Below, in pieces: positions 5,190 to 12,525 of a stretch of DNA of 45,915 nucleotides. The notes beneath the pieces are model-generated. The model did not search any database and was not told where the DNA came from. It saw nothing but the letters and a program-made list of their open reading frames with translations. The stretch is taken from the NCBI GenBank assembly GCA_031256035.1, contig JAIRRJ010000055.1, positions 1 through 45,915 on the forward strand. Reading direction: 5' to 3'. The first letter of the stretch is position 1; every line of letters starts with the position of its first letter. Position numbers and translations under genes: made by a program. The stretch is from Treponema sp. (GTDB lineage: Bacteria > Spirochaetota > Spirochaetia > Treponematales > Breznakiellaceae).

Positions 5190-6392
5190 ATGGCGAAAAT
5201 CTGCATGAAGACCCCTCTGGTAGAAATTGACGGCGATGAAATGACCCGTGTCCTGTGGGCGGTGGTAAAAGAAAAGCTCATCCTCCCCTTTGTTGATCTT
5301 AAAACAGAATATTACGATCTGGGACTTTTGAACCGGGACGCCACAGACGATGCCGTAAGCGCCGAATCTGCGCACGCCATTGCAAGGCTTGGGGTTGGGG
5401 TAAAATGCGCAACAATCACCGCCAATGCCGCAAGACAGGAAGAATACAGCTTAAAACGCCTGCACCCAAGCCCTAACGCTACAATCAGGGCAATCCTTGA
5501 CGGCACAGTGTTCCGAAGGCCGATAATAGTTAACCGCATAAAACCATCAGTTAACACATGGAAATCGCCTATTGTAATTGGCCGCCATGCCTACGGCGAT
5601 GTCTATAAAGCGGCTGAAATGGAGATTGATGGTCCGGGCAAAGTGGAGCTTGTCTACACAAGGGCGGACGGGTCGGAACGCCGCGTTACGGTAGCGGCTT
5701 TTGAAGGAAAAGGCATTGTTCAGGGAATGCACAACTACGACGCTTCAATCAGAAGTTTTGCCCGCGCCTGTTTCCTCTATGCCTTGCAGGAAAAACTCCC
5801 CCTCTGGTTCGCTGCAAAGGATACAATCTCCAAAATCTACGACGGCCGTTTCAAAGCTATTTTCAACGAAGTCTACGAAAGCGAGTTTAAGACACAATGC
5901 GCCGCCGCCGGAATTGAGTATTTTTACACATTGATTGACGATGCGGTTGCGCGGGTAGTAAAGGGCGAAGGCGGCTTTTTGTGGGCATGTAAAAATTACG
6001 ACGGGGACGTAATGAGCGACATGGTGGCAAGCGCAAGCGGAAGCCTTGCCATGATGACAAGTGTCCTTGTCTCCCCTTCAGGCGTTTTTGAATATGAAGC
6101 TGCCCACGGTACTGTTCAGCAGCATTACTACCGCTGGAAGAAAGGCGAAAAAACCAGCACCAATCCTACGGCGCTTATTTTCGCATGGTCGGGAGCGCTT
6201 TCCAAACGCGCTGAATTGGACGGCCTTCCCGAACTTGCGGATTTTGCGAAGCGGCTGGAATCGTCTGTCATCAGCGCTATTGAAGCCGGAGAGATGACCG
6301 GAGACTTGGCAAAGTTTTCTGTTCCTGCGCCTGAAAAAATACTCAATTCATGGGACTTTATTGATCGTGTAGCGAAATTAATGCGTGCCTGA
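5190..6392 (+). CDS. icd: NADP-dependent isocitrate dehydrogenase, eukaryote-like dimeric type
   Basis: Oxidises isocitrate to 2-oxoglutarate and CO2 with NADP, giving a precursor for glutamate synthesis. The 400-aa protein matches the short homodimeric type II family, in which mitochondrial and cytosolic IDH fall: VEIDGDEMTRVLW at the start, SPNATIRAILDGTVFR, the DGDVMSDMVAS metal-site region and EAAHGTVQQHY near the end. The start is set at 5190 because the family begins there; the open frame continues upstream into the copA coding region, which is a shadow. It appears to have its own promoter rather than depending on copA. Confidence 0.93.
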   Translation: MAKICMKTPLVEIDGDEMTRVLWAVVKEKLILPFVDLKTEYYDLGLLNRDATDDAVSAESAHAIARLGVGVKCATITANAARQEEYSLKRLHPSPNATIRAILDGTVFRRPIIVNRIKPSVNTWKSPIVIGRHAYGDVYKAAEMEIDGPGKVELVYTRADGSERRVTVAAFEGKGIVQGMHNYDASIRSFARACFLYALQEKLPLWFAAKDTISKIYDGRFKAIFNEVYESEFKTQCAAAGIEYFYTLIDDAVARVVKGEGGFLWACKNYDGDVMSDMVASASGSLAMMTSVLVSPSGVFEYEAAHGTVQQHYYRWKKGEKTSTNPTALIFAWSGALSKRAELDGLPELADFAKRLESSVISAIEAGEMTGDLAKFSVPAPEKILNSWDFIDRVAKLMRA

Positions 6393-6408
6393 CGCCCCTG
6401 CGCTCTGC

Positions 6409-6498
6409 CTATACTTTTTTCCGCATATACCGTGCAAAAGCCGCTATTGAAAAACCGATGAGAGTGAGCGATATAGCTATACATAATTGAACATACAT
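6409..6498 (-). CDS. 29-aa single-span membrane peptide
   Basis: The minus strand has AGGAGG six bases before an ATG at 6498, then 29 codons to TAG at 6411-6409. The peptide is MYVQLCIAISLTLIGFS followed by a short basic tail (RYMRKK), which is one membrane helix with a positive C-terminus. The Shine-Dalgarno sequence overlaps the end of the preceding 59-aa gene, so the two form a small operon. The ideal ribosome site and overlap argue that it is a real gene. Function is unknown; a small regulatory or holin-like membrane peptide would look like this. Confidence 0.6.
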   Translation of the reverse strand: MYVQLCIAISLTLIGFSIAAFARYMRKKV

Positions 6499-6500
6499 TT

Positions 6501-6680
6501 TCAGCCTCCTATAATCCAAGTTCTTATTATTTCAATTACCGCCAGAAGCCCGACAACTCCTGCTGCGTTTCCTAAAATCTCCAGAACTTTCAAAAATCTG
6601 TTTTCCGGCTTTTGCATTATGCCGATTATTGTATCGGCCTTTTTGTTTAATGCCGTCAATTCCACAATAACCTGTTCCAT
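6501..6680 (-). CDS. 59-aa small membrane protein
   Basis: Starts at the ATG at 6680 and ends at TGA 6503-6501, inside the ribosome site of the 29-aa gene. The first half is polar with a helical pattern (LTALNKKADTIIGIMQK). The second half is one hydrophobic segment (GNAAGVVGLLAVIEII) ending TWIIGG. A strong promoter on the minus strand lies immediately upstream with its -10 box seven bases before the ATG. No known family is recognised. The arrangement resembles small membrane effector pairs, but that is only a structural likeness. Confidence 0.6.
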   Translation of the reverse strand: MEQVIVELTALNKKADTIIGIMQKPENRFLKVLEILGNAAGVVGLLAVIEIIRTWIIGG

Positions 6681-6687
6681 ATTCTAT

Positions 6688-6716
6688 ATGTTATATCTTG
6701 AGAGAAGGATTGTCAA
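6688..6716 (-). promoter_or_regulatory. Promoter of the small membrane-protein pair, leaderless type
   Basis: On the minus strand TTGACA is a perfect -35 box, followed 17 bases later by TAACAT (an overlapping TATAAC is two bases earlier). TAACAT ends seven bases before the ATG at 6680, so the transcript should start at the codon itself. Confidence 0.55.
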
Positions 6717-6764
6717 GTACCAAAACGATACCTGACATCCCGCATGTTCTTGTTAACATATTTC

Positions 6765-6825
6765 TCGAAAGAAGACCGCACGCAAAGGCACCGAGACGCA
6801 AAGGAAACAAAGGGGAAAAAGTGAC
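6765..6825. repeat. Dispersed CGCAAAGGCACCGAGACGCAAAGG-type repeat
   Basis: The stretch ACGCAAAGGCACCGAGACG and its continuation recur in degenerate form near 13088, 14402-14445, 15848-15880, 16370-16395 and 45796-45822. It is intergenic in all these places. Confidence 0.6.
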
Positions 6826-6842
6826 TAACACCCAAATTGTCT

Positions 6843-7100
6843 TTAATGTTCCTGCATCTTGTGCCCACTAAAAAAGAAAGGAATGAAATTAAAGCTGTTA
6901 ATCTCTTTAGGAAAAAAAATATCGTTTGATACACCGTCCAACTCAACAGCTCTGGATTTATCTATAAAACTGAGAAGGGACAGAGCTTCTGTATGGAAGT
7001 AAGTTATCACTTCAGGATTTCTTGACGACATATCAAAATCCTGCGCATCAAGACAAACCAATACATTGATAAATAACATTAATATGCAATATTTAATCAT
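6843..7100 (-). CDS. Hypothetical secreted protein, 85 aa
   Basis: Begins with a short signal peptide (MIKYCILMLFINVLVCLDA) and continues with a polar segment that has no recognisable domain, ending in FNFIPFFFSGHKMQEH. Its ATG overlaps the stop of the gene upstream (ATGA-type junction), so translation is probably coupled. The upstream gene appears frameshifted, so this small protein may itself be a remnant of a larger locus. Confidence that it is a functional gene is modest. Confidence 0.45.
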   Translation of the reverse strand: MIKYCILMLFINVLVCLDAQDFDMSSRNPEVITYFHTEALSLLSFIDKSRAVELDGVSNDIFFPKEINSFNFIPFFFSGHKMQEH

Positions 7101-7517
7101 TTAACAAGCTCCTGCCATTCATTCCAATCGTGTATTCATTGAATGGGAGTGATTTATCATTATTAAACTTACAAAATGACAATATCGACTTAAAAAAGCT
7201 GCCATTATCAGACCAAAAACAAAACACTAAACCTATGGCAGGATTATTGAAATGGGCCAGAGAACCGCTTTTGATGAATAGCTTAAAACCAAACCTTTCC
7301 CAAGCTAACAAATTATATGCTATTTGGATATATGCACCCGTTTCATAATTTTCATTATAAAATTCAACGCCAAAAAACTCCCGGTATCCTGCCTCGGCAG
7401 AGACAATATTAAAACCCAACTCACTTTCCCATTTTAGCTCAAGCTTTCCGGCATAAATATCATATTTTGCATGAAAGTCATAAGCAACATCACCGAAATC
7501 AAAATACGCTTTTTCAT
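7093..7517 (-). pseudogene. Frameshifted outer-membrane-like protein
   Basis: An ATG at 7517 opens MKKRILISVMLLMTF, a good signal peptide, but that frame stops after 27 codons. From about 7514 a second frame, lacking any usual start, reads AYDFHAKYDIYAGKLELKWE and continues to 7093 with alternating hydrophobic and polar residues typical of beta-barrel strands (GVEFYNENYETGAYIQIAY). Joining the two needs one frameshift near 7470-7500. It is either a decayed gene or a sequencing error. It is coupled to the 85-aa gene downstream. I cannot name the family. Confidence 0.5.
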
Positions 7518-7645
7518 CTTAATAAACACCTTTATATTTCTCATTTTCTAATTATGTCAATTATGGGTAGATATTGTCAATACATACATATAGAAAACTT
7601 ATAATTGTACTTTAGGATTTTGTATTTGAACATATTCTGTATGAT

Positions 7646-7984
7646 ATGAAAGCAAAGCCTACAAAAACAAGGAAGATTTTATCGTCAAATCTCAAAAAAC
7701 ATCGTAAAAAATTGGGGCTTTCACAGGAAAAACTTGCTGAAAATGCCGGAATTTCCAGTATGATGGTTAAAGATATAGAAGCATTCCGTACATGGGTTAG
7801 TGATAAGACATTGGAAAGCCTTGCTGTTGCCCTCAAAACAGACATTTACCGCCTTTTAATGCCAGATACCGCCTATGAAGAAGAAATAAACAAGACAATT
7901 CGTAATGATCTAAAAAATATTACTCAAAAAATTCGCCAAGACATAGATTTAACTCTTAAAAATGCCTTCAAATTATGGAGCTAA
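7646..7984 (+). CDS. XRE-family transcriptional regulator, 112 aa
   Basis: Residues about 10-70 form a Cro/C1-type helix-turn-helix: LKKHRKKLGLSQEKLAENAG, then ISSMMVKDIEAFRTWVSDKTLESLAVAL. The usual recognition-helix segment carries MMVKDIE. The C-terminal 40 residues are a charged helix (NDLKNITQKIRQDIDLTLKN) suited to dimerisation. It stands alone, upstream of carA on the same strand with a 75-base gap. Its target is unknown; it could act on its own promoter or on the decayed genes across the intergenic region. Confidence 0.85.
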   Translation: MKAKPTKTRKILSSNLKKHRKKLGLSQEKLAENAGISSMMVKDIEAFRTWVSDKTLESLAVALKTDIYRLLMPDTAYEEEINKTIRNDLKNITQKIRQDIDLTLKNAFKLWS

Positions 7985-8059
7985 ATATTGGCGATTGGCG
8001 GGGTTATTGTTTTTTCCTAAAATACCGTATAGCATTAGCAAAAGCATAACAAGGACAAT

Positions 8060-9208
8060 ATGGGCAAAACAGCAAAACTACCAAAACAAGCTCACATGTT
8101 AAAGCAAGCGAAATTTGTTTTGGAGGATGGCAGCGAATATTTTGGATGGTCATTCGGAAAGAACAGGTCTTTAGCGGGAGAACTTGTCTTTAATACCGGC
8201 ATGAACGGTTTGAATCATATACTGACAGACCCCGGCTCATGCGGGCAGATTGTTGTTTCTACTTATCCGCTGGCGGGCAACGGCGGCGTGCATGTAAAAC
8301 CAAACGGAGAGCCGTTCCTTGATGAACAGGGGCTGCCGCTTTCTCTTGAATCGGAAAAGATTCATGTTTCAGGTTTGGTAGTTTCCGATCTTTGCAGAGA
8401 GCCAAGCCATTATTCTTCAAAGTTAACTTTGTCGTCATGGCTTGAAAAAGAAAATGTACCCGGCATTTACGGTGTTGATACCCGCGCCCTCGCCGTAAGG
8501 CTGCGCGAACGCGGAACTATGCGGGGAAAAATCCTTGTCGAAGGTAAAACCGATGTTACATTGAATCAGGCGCGCCTTGCCAATCCCGCCGATGTTTCAC
8601 ATTATGAGGTTAAAAGTTTTGTTCCCGAAGGCGAAAAGGGAAATGAAAAGAGGCTTAATATTGCTTTAATTGACTGCGGGGTTAAGGCGAATATTATCCG
8701 CTGCTTTCTTGCGCGTAATGCCGAGGTGATCCGCGTGCCTTGGAATCATGATTTAAGCGGGATTGAATACGACGGTATTTTTATTTCAAACGGGCCAGGC
8801 GATCCTAAAGACTGCGGCAAAACAATCGCGGCAGTACGCAAAATGTTTTCAGCTAATAAACCGATCTTCGGCGTTGGTATCGGAAACCTCATCATAGCTC
8901 TTGCCGCCGGCGCGGATACTCACAAAATGCACTTCGGGCATTGCGGGCAGAACCAGCCCTGCATTGAGGCAGATTCAAAGCGTTGTTACATTACCGCGCA
9001 GAATCACGGCTATGCGGTGCGGGGCGAAACGCTCCCCCGCGGCTGGCAGCCCTGGTTTATCAACGCGAACGACGGCAGTATCGAAGGGATACGCTGCACG
9101 GATCAGCCTTTTGCGGCGGTACAGTTCAACCCCGAAGGCTGTCCCGGCCCCCGCGACACTGAATTCCTGTTCGACAAATTTATTGAGCAGGTGAAGGAGC
9201 GCAAATGA
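8060..9208 (+). CDS. carA: Carbamoyl-phosphate synthase small subunit with inactivated glutaminase
   Basis: The 382-aa protein has the full two-domain layout of CarA: an N-terminal domain ([42 protein letters not shown]) and a class I amidotransferase domain ([48 protein letters not shown]). The nucleophile loop, normally GICLGHQ, is GVGIGNL, so the catalytic cysteine is glycine. The catalytic histidine of GHPEASPGP is replaced too (FNPEGCPGP). It therefore cannot hydrolyse glutamine. The GNL in place of GHQ and the sequence GQNQP resemble the ammonia-dependent mitochondrial CPS1. It probably serves as a structural partner of CarB, with free ammonia as nitrogen source. The stop overlaps carB's ATG (ATGA). 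Confidence 0.9.
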
Positions 9209-12200
9209 CACCAAATCCCCCACTCCCTACTCCCCGTTCCCCGCTCCCCAATAAAGTTCTCATTCTCGGTTCTGGCGGACTAAAAATCGGGCAGGCGGGG
9301 GAATTTGACTATTCCGGCTCACAGGCAATAAAGGCGCTGCGCGAAGAAGGGATTAAAGTAGTTTTGATTAATCCCAACATCGCCACAATTCAAACCAGCG
9401 AAGGCATGGCGGACGCTACTTATTATCTTCCCGTAACACCTGAGTATGTGCGCCAGGTAATTGAAAAAGAAAAACCTGACGGGCTTTTGCTGTCGTTCGG
9501 CGGACAGACCGCGCTTAACTGCGGGGTTGCTCTTGACAGGGACGGCACTCTTGCCGAATACGGGGTGAAGGTATTAGGCACTTCTGTAAAAACCATCGAA
9601 GATACCGAAGACCGCGAACTGTTTGTTAAACGCCTTGATGAAATCGGCGCGTTATCTCCCCGCAGTGTAGCCGTTACAGACACCGCCTCTGCGCTAAAAG
9701 CCGCGGGAGAAATCGGCTACCCTGTCATGGCGCGTGTCGCCTACGCGCTTGGCGGCGCCGGTTCGGGCATCTGCCGCAATGAAAAAGAACTTTCAAAAAG
9801 ATGCGGCATGGCTTTCGCAAGGACGAACGAAACGGGCGCATCCCCCCAGATACTTGTTGAAGAATGGCTCGGCGGCTGGAAGGAAATTGAATTTGAAGTA
9901 GTAAGAGATTCATTCGACAACTGCATCACCGTATGCAGCATGGAGAATTTTGATCCTCTCGGCATACATACAGGAGAGAGCATTGTCGCAGCCCCCGCGC
10001 AAACATTATCTGATTCCGAGTTTCAAAAACTAAGAAAGGTAGCGATTGACGTTATCCGCCATCTTGGAATCATCGGCGAGTGCAATATCCAGTACGCCCT
10101 CGATCCGTTTTCGGAAGATTACCGCATCATCGAAGTGAACGCGAGGCTTTCAAGGAGTTCCGCCCTTGCTTCCAAAGCTACAGGTTACCCGCTTGCCTTT
10201 GTTGCGGCAAAACTCGCCCTTGGGTACTCGCTCCTTGACATTGAGAACCGCATCACCCGCGCGACAAAGTCCTGCTTCGAGCCGGCAATAGACTATGTTG
10301 TGGTAAAAGTCCCGCGCTGGGACCTTGCTAAATTCAAAAATGTAGACCTCCGCATCGGCTCGGAAATGAAGTCTGTCGGCGAAGTTATGTCTATCGCGAG
10401 AACTTTTGAAGAGGCGATACAAAAAGCCCTGCGCATGACAGGCATCGGCGCTCCCGGCCTTGCGGGGGAGGATGCCCTTTGTGGGGGCAGCTTTACTCAA
10501 CCGGGAAAGATAGACGCGAAAATCCGCGATGCGCTTTCAATGCCCACAGACAGGAGAATATTTGTAATCTACCGCGCTCTTGTTGAAGGCTGGACGGCGG
10601 ACAAGATTCACAGCCTGACTAAAATCGACAAATGGTTTTTGCACAAGATAGCGAATGTTTATGAGACAGAGAAAGAATTGAGAGGAACAGTGAGCAGTGA
10701 GCAGGGATCAGTTCTTGTTCGCGAGCTTCTTGCAAAAGCCAAACGCCTCGGTTTCTCCGATTCCCGCATTGGAGAGTTTTGCAGTCTTTCAGAAAAAGAA
10801 GTGCGCGCCCTACGGGAAGAGTTCCGCATCTTTCCTGCCGTCAAACAGATTGACACTCTTGCGGCGGAATATCCGGCAAAAACCAACTATCTGTACATGA
10901 GCTACTGCGCCGCGGAAACGGCAAGCGGAGGAATTCCCATTGACGATGTAAGCCCCGCCGGGCGCGGCGTTATGGTGCTAGGCTCGGGGGCTTACAGGAT
11001 TGGAAGCAGCGTTGAATTTGACTGGTGCTGCGTTAACGCGGCGTTGACGGCGCGCAAGCTGGGGCGTTATTCGATCATGGTGAACTGTAATCCCGAAACA
11101 GTCTCCACCGATTACGATATGTGCGACAGGCTCTACTTTGAAGAGCTTACCCTTGAGAGGATTTTGGATATTTACGAACGTGAAAAAGCTGACGGAATAA
11201 TTCTTTCGATGGGGGGGCAGATACCCAATAACCTTGCGACAAAACTTTTTGACGCGTGAACTCATCTTTACGGAACAACACCGCAGTCAATTGACATGGC
11301 GGAAGACAGGCATAAATTCTCACGGCTTCTTGACAAGCTCAATATTGAGCAGCCTGAATGGAAGGAACTGACAGACCTTGCATCAGCGCGTAAATTCGCA
11401 AGTGAAGTTGGCTATCCTGTTTTGATACGCCCCAGTTATGTGCTATCAGGCGCGGCGATGAATGTCGCTTGGGATGATCAGAGCCTTGAGAAATTCTTAA
11501 GCCTTGCTTCGGACGTATCGGCGGAACATCCTGTGGTCATTTCCAAATTTGTCGAAAACTCAAAGGAAATAGAAATTGACGCTGTAGCCAGGAAGGGCGA
11601 GATTCTCTTTAACGCCATTACCGAACATATAGAAAATGCCGGTGTTCATTCAGGAGACGCGACAGTAGTCCTTCCCGCGCAAAGGCTCTATGTGGAAACC
11701 GTGCGCAAGATCAGGAGGATAAGCGAACAAATCGTCAAAGCCCTTGATATTACTGGCCCGTTTAACATCCAGTTTCTTGCACAGCGCGGGCGTGTGCGGG
11801 TGATTGAGTGCAACCTGAGGGCAAGCCGCAGTTTCCCGTTCTGCTCAAAGGTCAGCAGGGTGAACATGATTGAGATGGCTGTCAAGGCAATGCTGGACGA
11901 GCCAGTGGAAAAAACCGCCGTCTCTACCCTGGATTTGCAATGGGTGGGAGTAAAAGCCGCGCAGTTCAGCTTTTCAAGGCTTCACGGAGCAGACCCTGTA
12001 AGCGGCGTGGAGATGGCAAGCACAGGGGAAGTCGGCTGCATAGGAACTGATTTTTCTGACGCTCTGTTAAAGGCGCTTCTTTCCGTGGGATATAAAATCC
12101 CGAAAGCAAAAGCAGGTCGCGTCCCGCGGGTACTGCTTTCTACCGGCCCCATTGAAACCAAAGTGGATTTTCTTGACTCGGCGCAAAAGCTTGTCTCAAT

Positions 12201-12525
12201 GGGCTACGAACTTTTCGGCTCAAAGGGAACGGCAAAATTTCTTGCGGCTAACAATGTCTCCGCAAAAACCCTGCACTGGCCGCTTGAAGACAAACAGCCC
12301 AATATAGCCGATTTCATAAAACGCCGCGAAATTGACATGATTATCAATATCCCGAAAAACAACCGCGAACTTGAACTGAAAAACGACTACATTATCCGCC
12401 GTATGGCAGTTGACTTTGACATTCCCCTGTTCACGAACATCAAGGTTGCAAAAGAATTTATTGACGCTCTTGAGACTCTGCATAACGGAGCAGGCGTGGA
12501 AATTAAAGCTTGGGAAGAATATTAA
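9205..12525 (+). CDS. carB: Carbamoyl-phosphate synthase large subunit, interrupted by an in-frame UGA
   Basis: Makes carbamoyl phosphate for arginine and pyrimidines from bicarbonate, ATP and ammonia. Both ATP-grasp halves and the C-terminal MGS-like regulatory domain ([13 protein letters not shown] onward) are present. The sequence is close to the eukaryotic CPS type ([36 protein letters not shown]). Codon 685 (11257-11259) is TGA, and homology continues in the same frame directly after it ([17 protein letters not shown]), so no frameshift is involved. Without readthrough the products would be 684 aa and, if restarted at ATG 11296, 409 aa. Two repeat-derived insertions occur: [12 protein letters not shown] at the N-terminus (9216-9250) and [10 protein letters not shown] (10687-10712). 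UGA ends other genes here, so it is not a sense codon. Confidence 0.85.
9216..9250 (-). repeat. Heptamer repeat at the start of carB
   Basis: On the minus strand the bases read GGGGAGC, GGGGAAC, GGGGAGT, AGGGAGT, GGGGGA, the same heptamer family as in copA at 4345. It encodes a proline-rich N-terminal extension before the family's usual beginning [14 protein letters not shown]. Confidence 0.85.
10687..10712 (+). repeat. AGTGAGCAGTGAGCAG repeat inside carB
   Basis: ACAGTGAGCAGTGAGCAGGG matches the blocks of the dispersed repeat at 197-278, 14378-14400 and 45826-45915. It lies in frame within carB between the two halves of the protein and adds about ten residues. Confidence 0.75.

Follow-up and report, generated by a model that had tools for sequence, protein, structure and literature searches.

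The carAB genes of a clade of Treponema genomes probably encode an ammonia-dependent carbamoyl phosphate synthase (CPS), which would have arisen on a eukaryote-like CPS by convergence with vertebrate CPS1. One of these gene pairs lies on the 45,915-nucleotide stretch of DNA analysed here (the window; G000 is the window genome, further G numbers denote genomes and L numbers loci). In the proposed mechanism, CarA would no longer hydrolyse glutamine, as its nucleophile, its general base and two further residues of the glutamine site are lost, and would be retained for a structural role beside CarB. The large subunit would take free NH3, which we infer to be the donor in vivo, activate bicarbonate with one ATP, form carbamate and phosphorylate it with a second ATP, and the carbamoyl phosphate would be passed on to ornithine and aspartate carbamoyltransferase.

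The glutaminase site of CarA

The window carA (8060..9208, forward strand) was assigned as a CPS small subunit with a dead glutaminase site on the basis of its open reading frame, TIGR01368 and the domains PF00988 and PF00117. The frame is unbroken and comprises 382 amino acids. Since its TIGR01368 score of 391.7 bits exceeds the cut-off of 307, an annotation by this model would label the protein as glutamine-hydrolysing, a name that would be wrong for the genomes in which the catalytic Cys is missing.

In the alignment to E. coli CarA and human CPS1, the nucleophile loop reads GVGIGNL (residues 271-277; 8870..8890, forward strand) and the His loop QFNPEGCPG (residues 355-363; 9122..9148, forward strand). 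Gly273 occupies the position of E. coli Cys269, which is Ser in human CPS1, and Asn357 the position of E. coli His353, which is still His in human CPS1, so that of the Cys-His-Glu triad only the Glu is retained (Glu359). Cys269 and His353 are described as essential for glutamine hydrolysis (PMC6245113). The first-pass annotation had read the loss of both catalytic residues from the loops GVGIGNL and FNPEGCPG and had proposed this alignment as a check; the replacement of Cys269 by Gly and of His353 by Asn bears it out. Judged by its sequence, the enzyme belongs to the CarAB family but lacks the complete triad that defines a glutamine-hydrolysing CarA.

The loss extends to two further positions. 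In E. coli, Ser47 and Gln273 line the glutamine site; their equivalents do not vary among the intact relatives (110 of 110) and are both gone in the window CarA, where Gly59 (codon 8234..8236, forward strand) and Leu277 are found. CPS1 also has Leu at the latter position, and the equivalents of Ser47, Cys269 and Gln273 are all absent from it too. Among the 13 aligned rows without the nucleophile Cys (Cys-less rows), none keeps Cys269 or the Ser47 equivalent, which is Ser in all 110 intact rows; Gln273 is kept in 2/13 and His353 in 1/13. Human CPS1 reads GISTGNL at the nucleophile loop and QFHPE at the His loop. The likeness to CPS1 that had been suggested beforehand therefore holds for the GNL pattern, which is common to both, but since CPS1 keeps the His of QFHPE, the window CarA has lost more than CPS1. 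Moreover, the loss is independent of that in CPS1, because the Cys/His site is intact in the closest relatives that share this eukaryote-like CarB.

A CarA that still hydrolyses glutamine via substitute residues is very improbable. The Glu of the triad persists along with much of its surroundings: of the 167 columns conserved among the 110 intact rows, 102 stay the same in 90% or more of the 13 Cys-less rows. In addition, Cys346 of the window (C346; E. coli Arg342) is Cys in 9 of the 10 rows of the main Cys-less clade. However, the same Cys is found in 5 of 110 intact rows, no His was gained as a replacement in the Cys-less clade (13 Cys-less versus 110 intact rows), the equivalents of Ser47 and Gln273 are lost, and the tunnel gate of CarB is relaxed in most of the clade. 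Cys and His elsewhere in the pocket had been named at the outset as a finding that would count against a lost activity; the alignment offers the non-exclusive candidate C346 and no replacement His.

Distribution and order of the losses

A CarA match was found in 31 of the 39 genomes of the window's genus. Two kinds occur, a CPS1-like CarA with 59-71% identity and an ordinary CarA with about 40% identity and a GIC.GHQ-type site. Cys-less CarA is present in 12/39 genomes (G000, G006, G009, G010, G011, G013, G020, G021, G022, G026, G027 and G028), eleven of which also lack the His; the exception is G027, with the Cys lost and the His kept. In three genomes (G030, G031 and G033) the CPS1-like CarA is intact. 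Unreadable in this motif count were the fragments L017, L038 and L039, with the CarA of G012 and G008 being such fragments, and the His loop of L030. The best 80 of 575 loci in named genomes come mostly from Treponema and other spirochaete metagenome-assembled genomes (MAGs), together with the isolate Breznakiella homolactica; Cys-less CarA occurs in four of these 80 (L058, L064, L092 and L096), all assignable to genomes of the window's genus, and L118 was misread through a frame shift in this motif reading. While four of the Cys-less genomes (G020, G021, G022 and G028) carry an ordinary CarA too, none was found in the other eight (G000, G006, G009, G010, G011, G013, G026 and G027). The sample codes Co191 and Emb289 (G021, G022, G009) appear in a paper on termite-gut MAGs (PMC7886697).

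The Cys-less CarA shows no sign of being released from selection. In 10 of the 11 CarA pairs, those with at least one Cys-less row, pN amounted to 0.08-0.25 compared to a pS of 0.48-0.73; pN well below pS indicates that CarA was held by purifying selection after the loss. No stops were found in the Cys-less CarA of the relatives. The distances in the CarA tree are longer within the Cys-less clade than among the intact rows. Together with the purifying selection, ten other genomes of the genus without both residues and one without the Cys place the residue loss beyond chance. The loss of the catalytic residues is a lineage trait.

The CarB tree, which is independent of the glutaminase trait, branches in the order of intact relatives, G027, the window and the remaining Cys-less genomes (SH-aLRT 99 and 99), and the CarA tree shows the same order (100/98 and 100/99). 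The trees with relatives, which had also been proposed in advance, give a single stepwise loss within the genus, with the Cys lost before the His. Accordingly ordered, the steps would have comprised Cys to Gly, later His to Asn or Tyr together with Gln273 to Leu, and then a loosening of the tunnel gate. Sister species carry intact, Cys-less and Cys/His-less forms, which together make up a natural series for the change from a channelled amidotransferase to an ammonia enzyme. A horizontal transfer of an inactive CPS1 into the clade from an animal host was rejected, since the clade is surrounded by intact spirochaete relatives.

Outside the genus, Cys and His are both kept in 116 of the 118 readable loci of a family survey of 195 genomes. 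This survey covered 119 loci beyond the genus, of which 24 had been fetched automatically and 95 chosen from the places listed; it did not extend to weaker places off the list or to split N-terminal pieces. L259 is without a His loop, and L272 and L273 are ordinary CarA. Both residues are lost in G189 (GIGLGCQ/FYPE) and G185 (GIGLGAA/FQPE), which pair together, apart from the window clade, at 95 in a quick CarA tree with weak deep branches, from which rows spanning less than about 330 residues and two ordinary CarA were dropped. One loss for all Cys-less CarA was rejected: a CarB clade of the window group plus G185 received a p-AU of 7e-10, in a quick LG+G4 tree, for a group named after the tree had been seen and with G189 absent, its carB being cut by a contig end. 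As G185 pairs with the intact row L279 on CarB (at 89), G185 and G189 could even be two separate losses. Altogether, the catalytic residues seem to have been lost more than once in the family.

CarB and its tunnel gate

The linked CarB had been described as eukaryote-like, and it is: the identity amounts to 55.5% with human CPS1 and to 42.7% with E. coli, and in a tree with one eukaryote, human CPS1 groups with the CarB of the spirochaetes (96/92). CPS sequences of Sigynarchaeum, Methanomethylicus and Gottesmanbacteria MAGs (L128, L124, L127, L121) also lie in the CPS1-like part of the CarB tree; this placement of archaeal and candidate-phylum CPS is of interest for the origin of the eukaryotic CPS.

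In all 12 Cys-less CarB rows, the catalytic positions R129, R169, E215, H243, Q285, E299, N301 and R303 (E. coli numbering) of the first ATP-grasp half are kept. The second ATP-grasp half appears to be retained as well, as judged by eye from the printed alignment. The 58 comparison rows include ordinary and distant CarB as well as the misread L118, and one of them has K at 129.

Differences were found at the tunnel gate. The gate of the ammonia tunnel in CPS1 comprises Cys648, Ala667 and Ala729 (PMC4655335), which correspond to E. coli positions 232, 251 and 314 in the alignment made here. Position 232 is C in 58/58 other rows and A or S in 8 of the 12 Cys-less rows, and position 251 is A in 58/58 other rows and S in 4/12, while the third position, likewise invariant in the 58 others, is unchanged in the Cys-less rows. 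The window CarB retains both the Cys and the Ala. Since the gate Cys is kept in the window, G027, G185 and G189, the drift of the gate follows the loss inside one clade and does not reflect many independent events. A tunnel block by Gln at the position of E. coli Gly293, as proposed for CPS1, proved unusable as evidence; most of the intact CPS1-like relatives have this Gln too, which makes it uninformative on the donor.

Linkage of carA to icd

Upstream of the window carA lies icd (5190..6392, forward strand), assigned as NADP-isocitrate dehydrogenase by NCBIfam NF006156 (608 bits, cut-off 335) and by synteny. Its product also exceeds the threshold of TIGR00127, a model of the eukaryote type (487 bits, cut-off 397). 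In the loci read, icd adjoins carA in 11 of 13 Cys-less compared to 0 of 68 intact loci (Fisher p 6e-12, a value that ignores kinship), or 0 of 61 if only intact loci with at least 1,300 bp upstream are considered. Loci were deduplicated by their C-terminal core and counted with at least 600 bp upstream or with icd seen; the count excludes fragments that were not read, namely L055 (without icd) as well as L056 and L057 (both with icd), and also L118 (without icd). The two Cys-less loci without the linkage are those of G027 and G189. Since icd was found in 163 of the 195 family genomes, the linkage to carA is new and not the gene itself. By the trees, the linkage arose at least twice. As both the gate change and the icd linkage are found mostly in one clade, the counts given for them are not counts of independent events.

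Placing the operon behind icd could couple it to ammonia assimilation, since the icd product 2-oxoglutarate would be another ammonia acceptor via glutamate dehydrogenase. The repeated linkage would also fit a separate glutaminase or deaminating partner that feeds ammonia to CarB by contact, so that the complex would still depend on amino acids, as it suggests a coupling to 2-oxoglutarate/glutamate metabolism. Such a partner is highly unlikely: no amidotransferase or glutaminase was recognised by eye in the neighbour clusters common to the Cys-less loci, and the relaxed gate residues speak against a sealed channel.

In the window, icd and carA are separated by a gap of 1,667 bp (1,686 bp between aligned ends), whereas the aligned ends lie 13-122 bp apart in the remaining icd-linked loci of the genus and 216 bp apart in G185. 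The intervening stretch (6393..8059, no strand assigned) was defined by synteny and contains a small XRE-type HTH gene (7646-7984; HTH_3); among the icd-linked loci read it was seen only in the window genome. It contains 12 promoter-like matches, with 6.8 expected.

The in-frame stop in the window carB

The window carB starts at 9205, directly after carA. Its first 684 codons (9205..11259, forward strand) comprise the bicarbonate-phosphorylating half, the oligomerisation domain and the start of the second half, and end at an in-frame TGA (11257-11259) which interrupts the frame. The carbamate-phosphorylating half and the MGS-like allosteric domain lie in the remainder of the frame (11260..12525, forward strand), with the next in-frame ATG at 11296, before which no clear ribosome-binding sequence was seen by eye. 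The position of the TGA is a conserved Gly, without a stop, in 12/12 aligned relatives, and carB is uninterrupted in the ten other Cys-less genomes in which it could be read next to carA, as it is in the piece available from G011. A reading of the TGA as an amino acid was ruled out, since carA itself ends in TGA and the relatives have a sense codon.

The stop would be either a draft-genome error or a very recent lesion. The window CarB carries 7 private changes in the 652 columns that are otherwise invariant (0-15 in the other 12 rows), and the window CarA 5 in 121 such columns (0-6 in the other rows); the CarB branch of the window is not long (0.12-0.13 in the trees). These few private changes give no sign of a prolonged decay, so that any real lesion would have to be very recent. 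The enzyme of the window would work only if the TGA stems from an error in the sequence or the assembly, represents a rare allele, or is suppressed. In consequence, the reading as an ammonia-dependent CPS is supported for the lineage, and for the window genome it would apply only under one of these conditions.

It is possible that the TGA and the 1.67-kb split between icd and carA mark an early decay. According to this explanation, the window operon would be a fresh pseudogene, and carbamoyl phosphate would come from YgeW and carbamate kinase, encoded on contig C114 of the window genome, or be dispensable owing to arginine and pyrimidine uptake. The in-frame stop, the interrupted icd-carA junction and the presence of a cluster with a YgeW-type knotted carbamoyltransferase and a carbamate kinase in this genome agree with it. 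On the other hand, carA is intact, CarB shows neither excess private changes nor a long branch, and the TGA may be an assembly error, which leaves this explanation unlikely for the window, though with some weight; the 11 other Cys-less genomes are untouched by it. Accordingly, what the first-pass annotation had proposed, an ammonia-fixing CPS in the window, stands at the level of the lineage, where the gate relaxation, the icd linkage, the second loss and a damaged PyrG argue for it, whereas the nonsense codon in the window carB had been missed.

The cluster on C114 (L149, 4338-10210) encodes the carbamate kinase, the knotted carbamoyltransferase YgeW, a YgeY-like hydrolase and a diaminopropionate ammonia-lyase. 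It is a possible second source of carbamoyl phosphate and ammonia in the window genome.

Comparison with known carbamoyl phosphate synthases

Like vertebrate CPS1 (human PDB 5dot/5dou/6uel), the enzyme of the clade retains a dead class I glutaminase domain with the GNL pattern and has lost the equivalents of Ser47 and Gln273. Unlike CPS1, which is one fused chain, it is encoded by separate carA and carB genes without any fusion, and whereas in CPS1 the Cys is changed to Ser and the His is kept, in the window the Cys is changed to Gly and the His is also lost. Compared by eye with the N-acetylglutamate site of CPS1 (residue names from PMC4655335), Thr1391, Thr1443 and Asn1449 are Ser, Arg and Asp here, while Thr1394, Trp1410, Asn1437 and Pro1439 are retained. 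The inactive glutaminase that marks CPS I is thus found, as far as the sequence tells, but its N-acetylglutamate site is not, and a regulation by N-acetylglutamate as in CPS1 is unsupported, since the activator site is not conserved. With separate subunits, other replacements and a non-conserved activator site, the enzyme would work like CPS I yet not be a CPS I. The series found in the clade also lets one ask for the purpose of the dead domain in CPS1. The CPS1 of Rana catesbeiana is likewise ammonia-dependent (PMC4655335); in the frog enzyme, however, the triad is kept and the glutaminase is regained by a single Lys to Leu exchange, whereas here the triad is gone.

With E. coli CarAB (CPS II), the operon shares the two-gene carAB arrangement, the domain order and the ATP-grasp residues, but the glutaminase site of the window is destroyed. 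The intact eukaryote-like CarAB of spirochaetes, e.g. of Breznakiella homolactica (L072), belong to the same gene family, with an identity to the window of roughly 51-70% for CarA and 64-83% for CarB. In contrast to the window, Cys, His, Ser47 and Gln273 are invariant in these intact enzymes (110/110), as are the gate residues (58/58), and icd is not adjacent (68/68).

Glutamine is given as the physiological donor of the CPS of E. coli and, by extension, of all bacteria, with E. coli CPS being able to use ammonia when its concentration is very high (PMC6245113). According to PMC4655335, glutamine is used by every CPS type other than CPS1. For carAB of the ant symbiont Blochmannia vafer, a use of ammonia has been proposed (PMC3017870). 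In titles and abstract openings of the open-access papers retrieved, no bacterial CarA without the glutaminase residues was found described. As far as searched, the retained bacterial CarA without catalytic residues is therefore new, while the use of ammonia by a bacterial CPS as such was already known.

Carbamoyl phosphate metabolism and PyrG

Genes for the use of carbamoyl phosphate are present in the Cys-less genomes. In the eight genomes without an ordinary CarA, which are 68-95% complete, argF was found in all eight and pyrB above the cut-off in six (not in G010 and G013). The window genome contains both pyrB and argF above the cut-off as well as proteins of the glutamine synthetase and glutamate dehydrogenase families. 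A full-length match to carbamate kinase was found in none of seven of these eight genomes; the one in the window genome scored 356 bits, just below the cut-off of 358.

A PF00117 search of the window genome returned two proteins only, CarA and the CTP synthase PyrG (G000:C87:20119-20811; locus L283, ORF 595-2214). This PyrG keeps the Cys, while the His is lost, with QFQPEF compared to QFHPEF in the best-matching solved CTP synthase. Within the genus, 20 PyrG domains were read, 5 from loci that had been fetched automatically and 15 from loci picked individually, and four of them have lost a catalytic residue: His to Gln in G000, Cys to Asn in G006, Cys to Ser in G003, and Cys to Ser together with His to Asn in G034, whose aligned stretch also contains one stop. 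On CarB, G034 lies within the Cys-less clade, and G003 is without any CPS match. In G000 and G006, no intact class I glutaminase was found. The other 16 PyrG domains are intact, including those of the CarA-Cys-less genomes G009, G010, G013, G020, G021, G022, G026 and G028. As PyrG is intact in most of the genomes with a Cys-less CarA, its loss is sporadic.

High ammonia is reported for termite guts of several feeding guilds (PMC4675541). There is about an even chance that a bacterial lineage in an ammonia-rich gut is abandoning glutamine hydrolysis in more than one enzyme of the nucleotide and arginine pathways, namely in CarA (12 genomes, and separately G185/G189) and in PyrG (G000, G006, G034 and G003), keeping the amidotransferase domains as scaffolds, relaxing the gates and rebuilding an ammonia-assimilation operon of icd, carA and carB apparently twice. 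The ammonia level may then set the nitrogen flow in these symbionts.

The ordinary CarA in G020, G021, G022 and G028, with the G021 copy lying in an island of glutamine enzymes, would also agree with a CarAB that was put to another use and has ceased to supply carbamoyl phosphate to the arginine and pyrimidine pathways. Against this stand the first-half catalytic residues of CarB, kept in 12/12 rows, and the eight genomes in which the Cys-less CarA is the sole one found and argF is present throughout, which makes a repurposing extremely unlikely compared to the preferred synthesis of carbamoyl phosphate from ammonia.

In G021 and G018, the ordinary CarAB lies in an island with glmS-like, glnA-like and purF-like genes, as recognised by eye from the first residues and for glnA also by PF00120. 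The open frames of the ordinary CarB are about 1,317-1,343 amino acids long (L152:9729-13682 in G021 and L154:9094-13125 in G018), and the ordinary CarB of G021 is fused to a DapF (diaminopimelate epimerase) domain.
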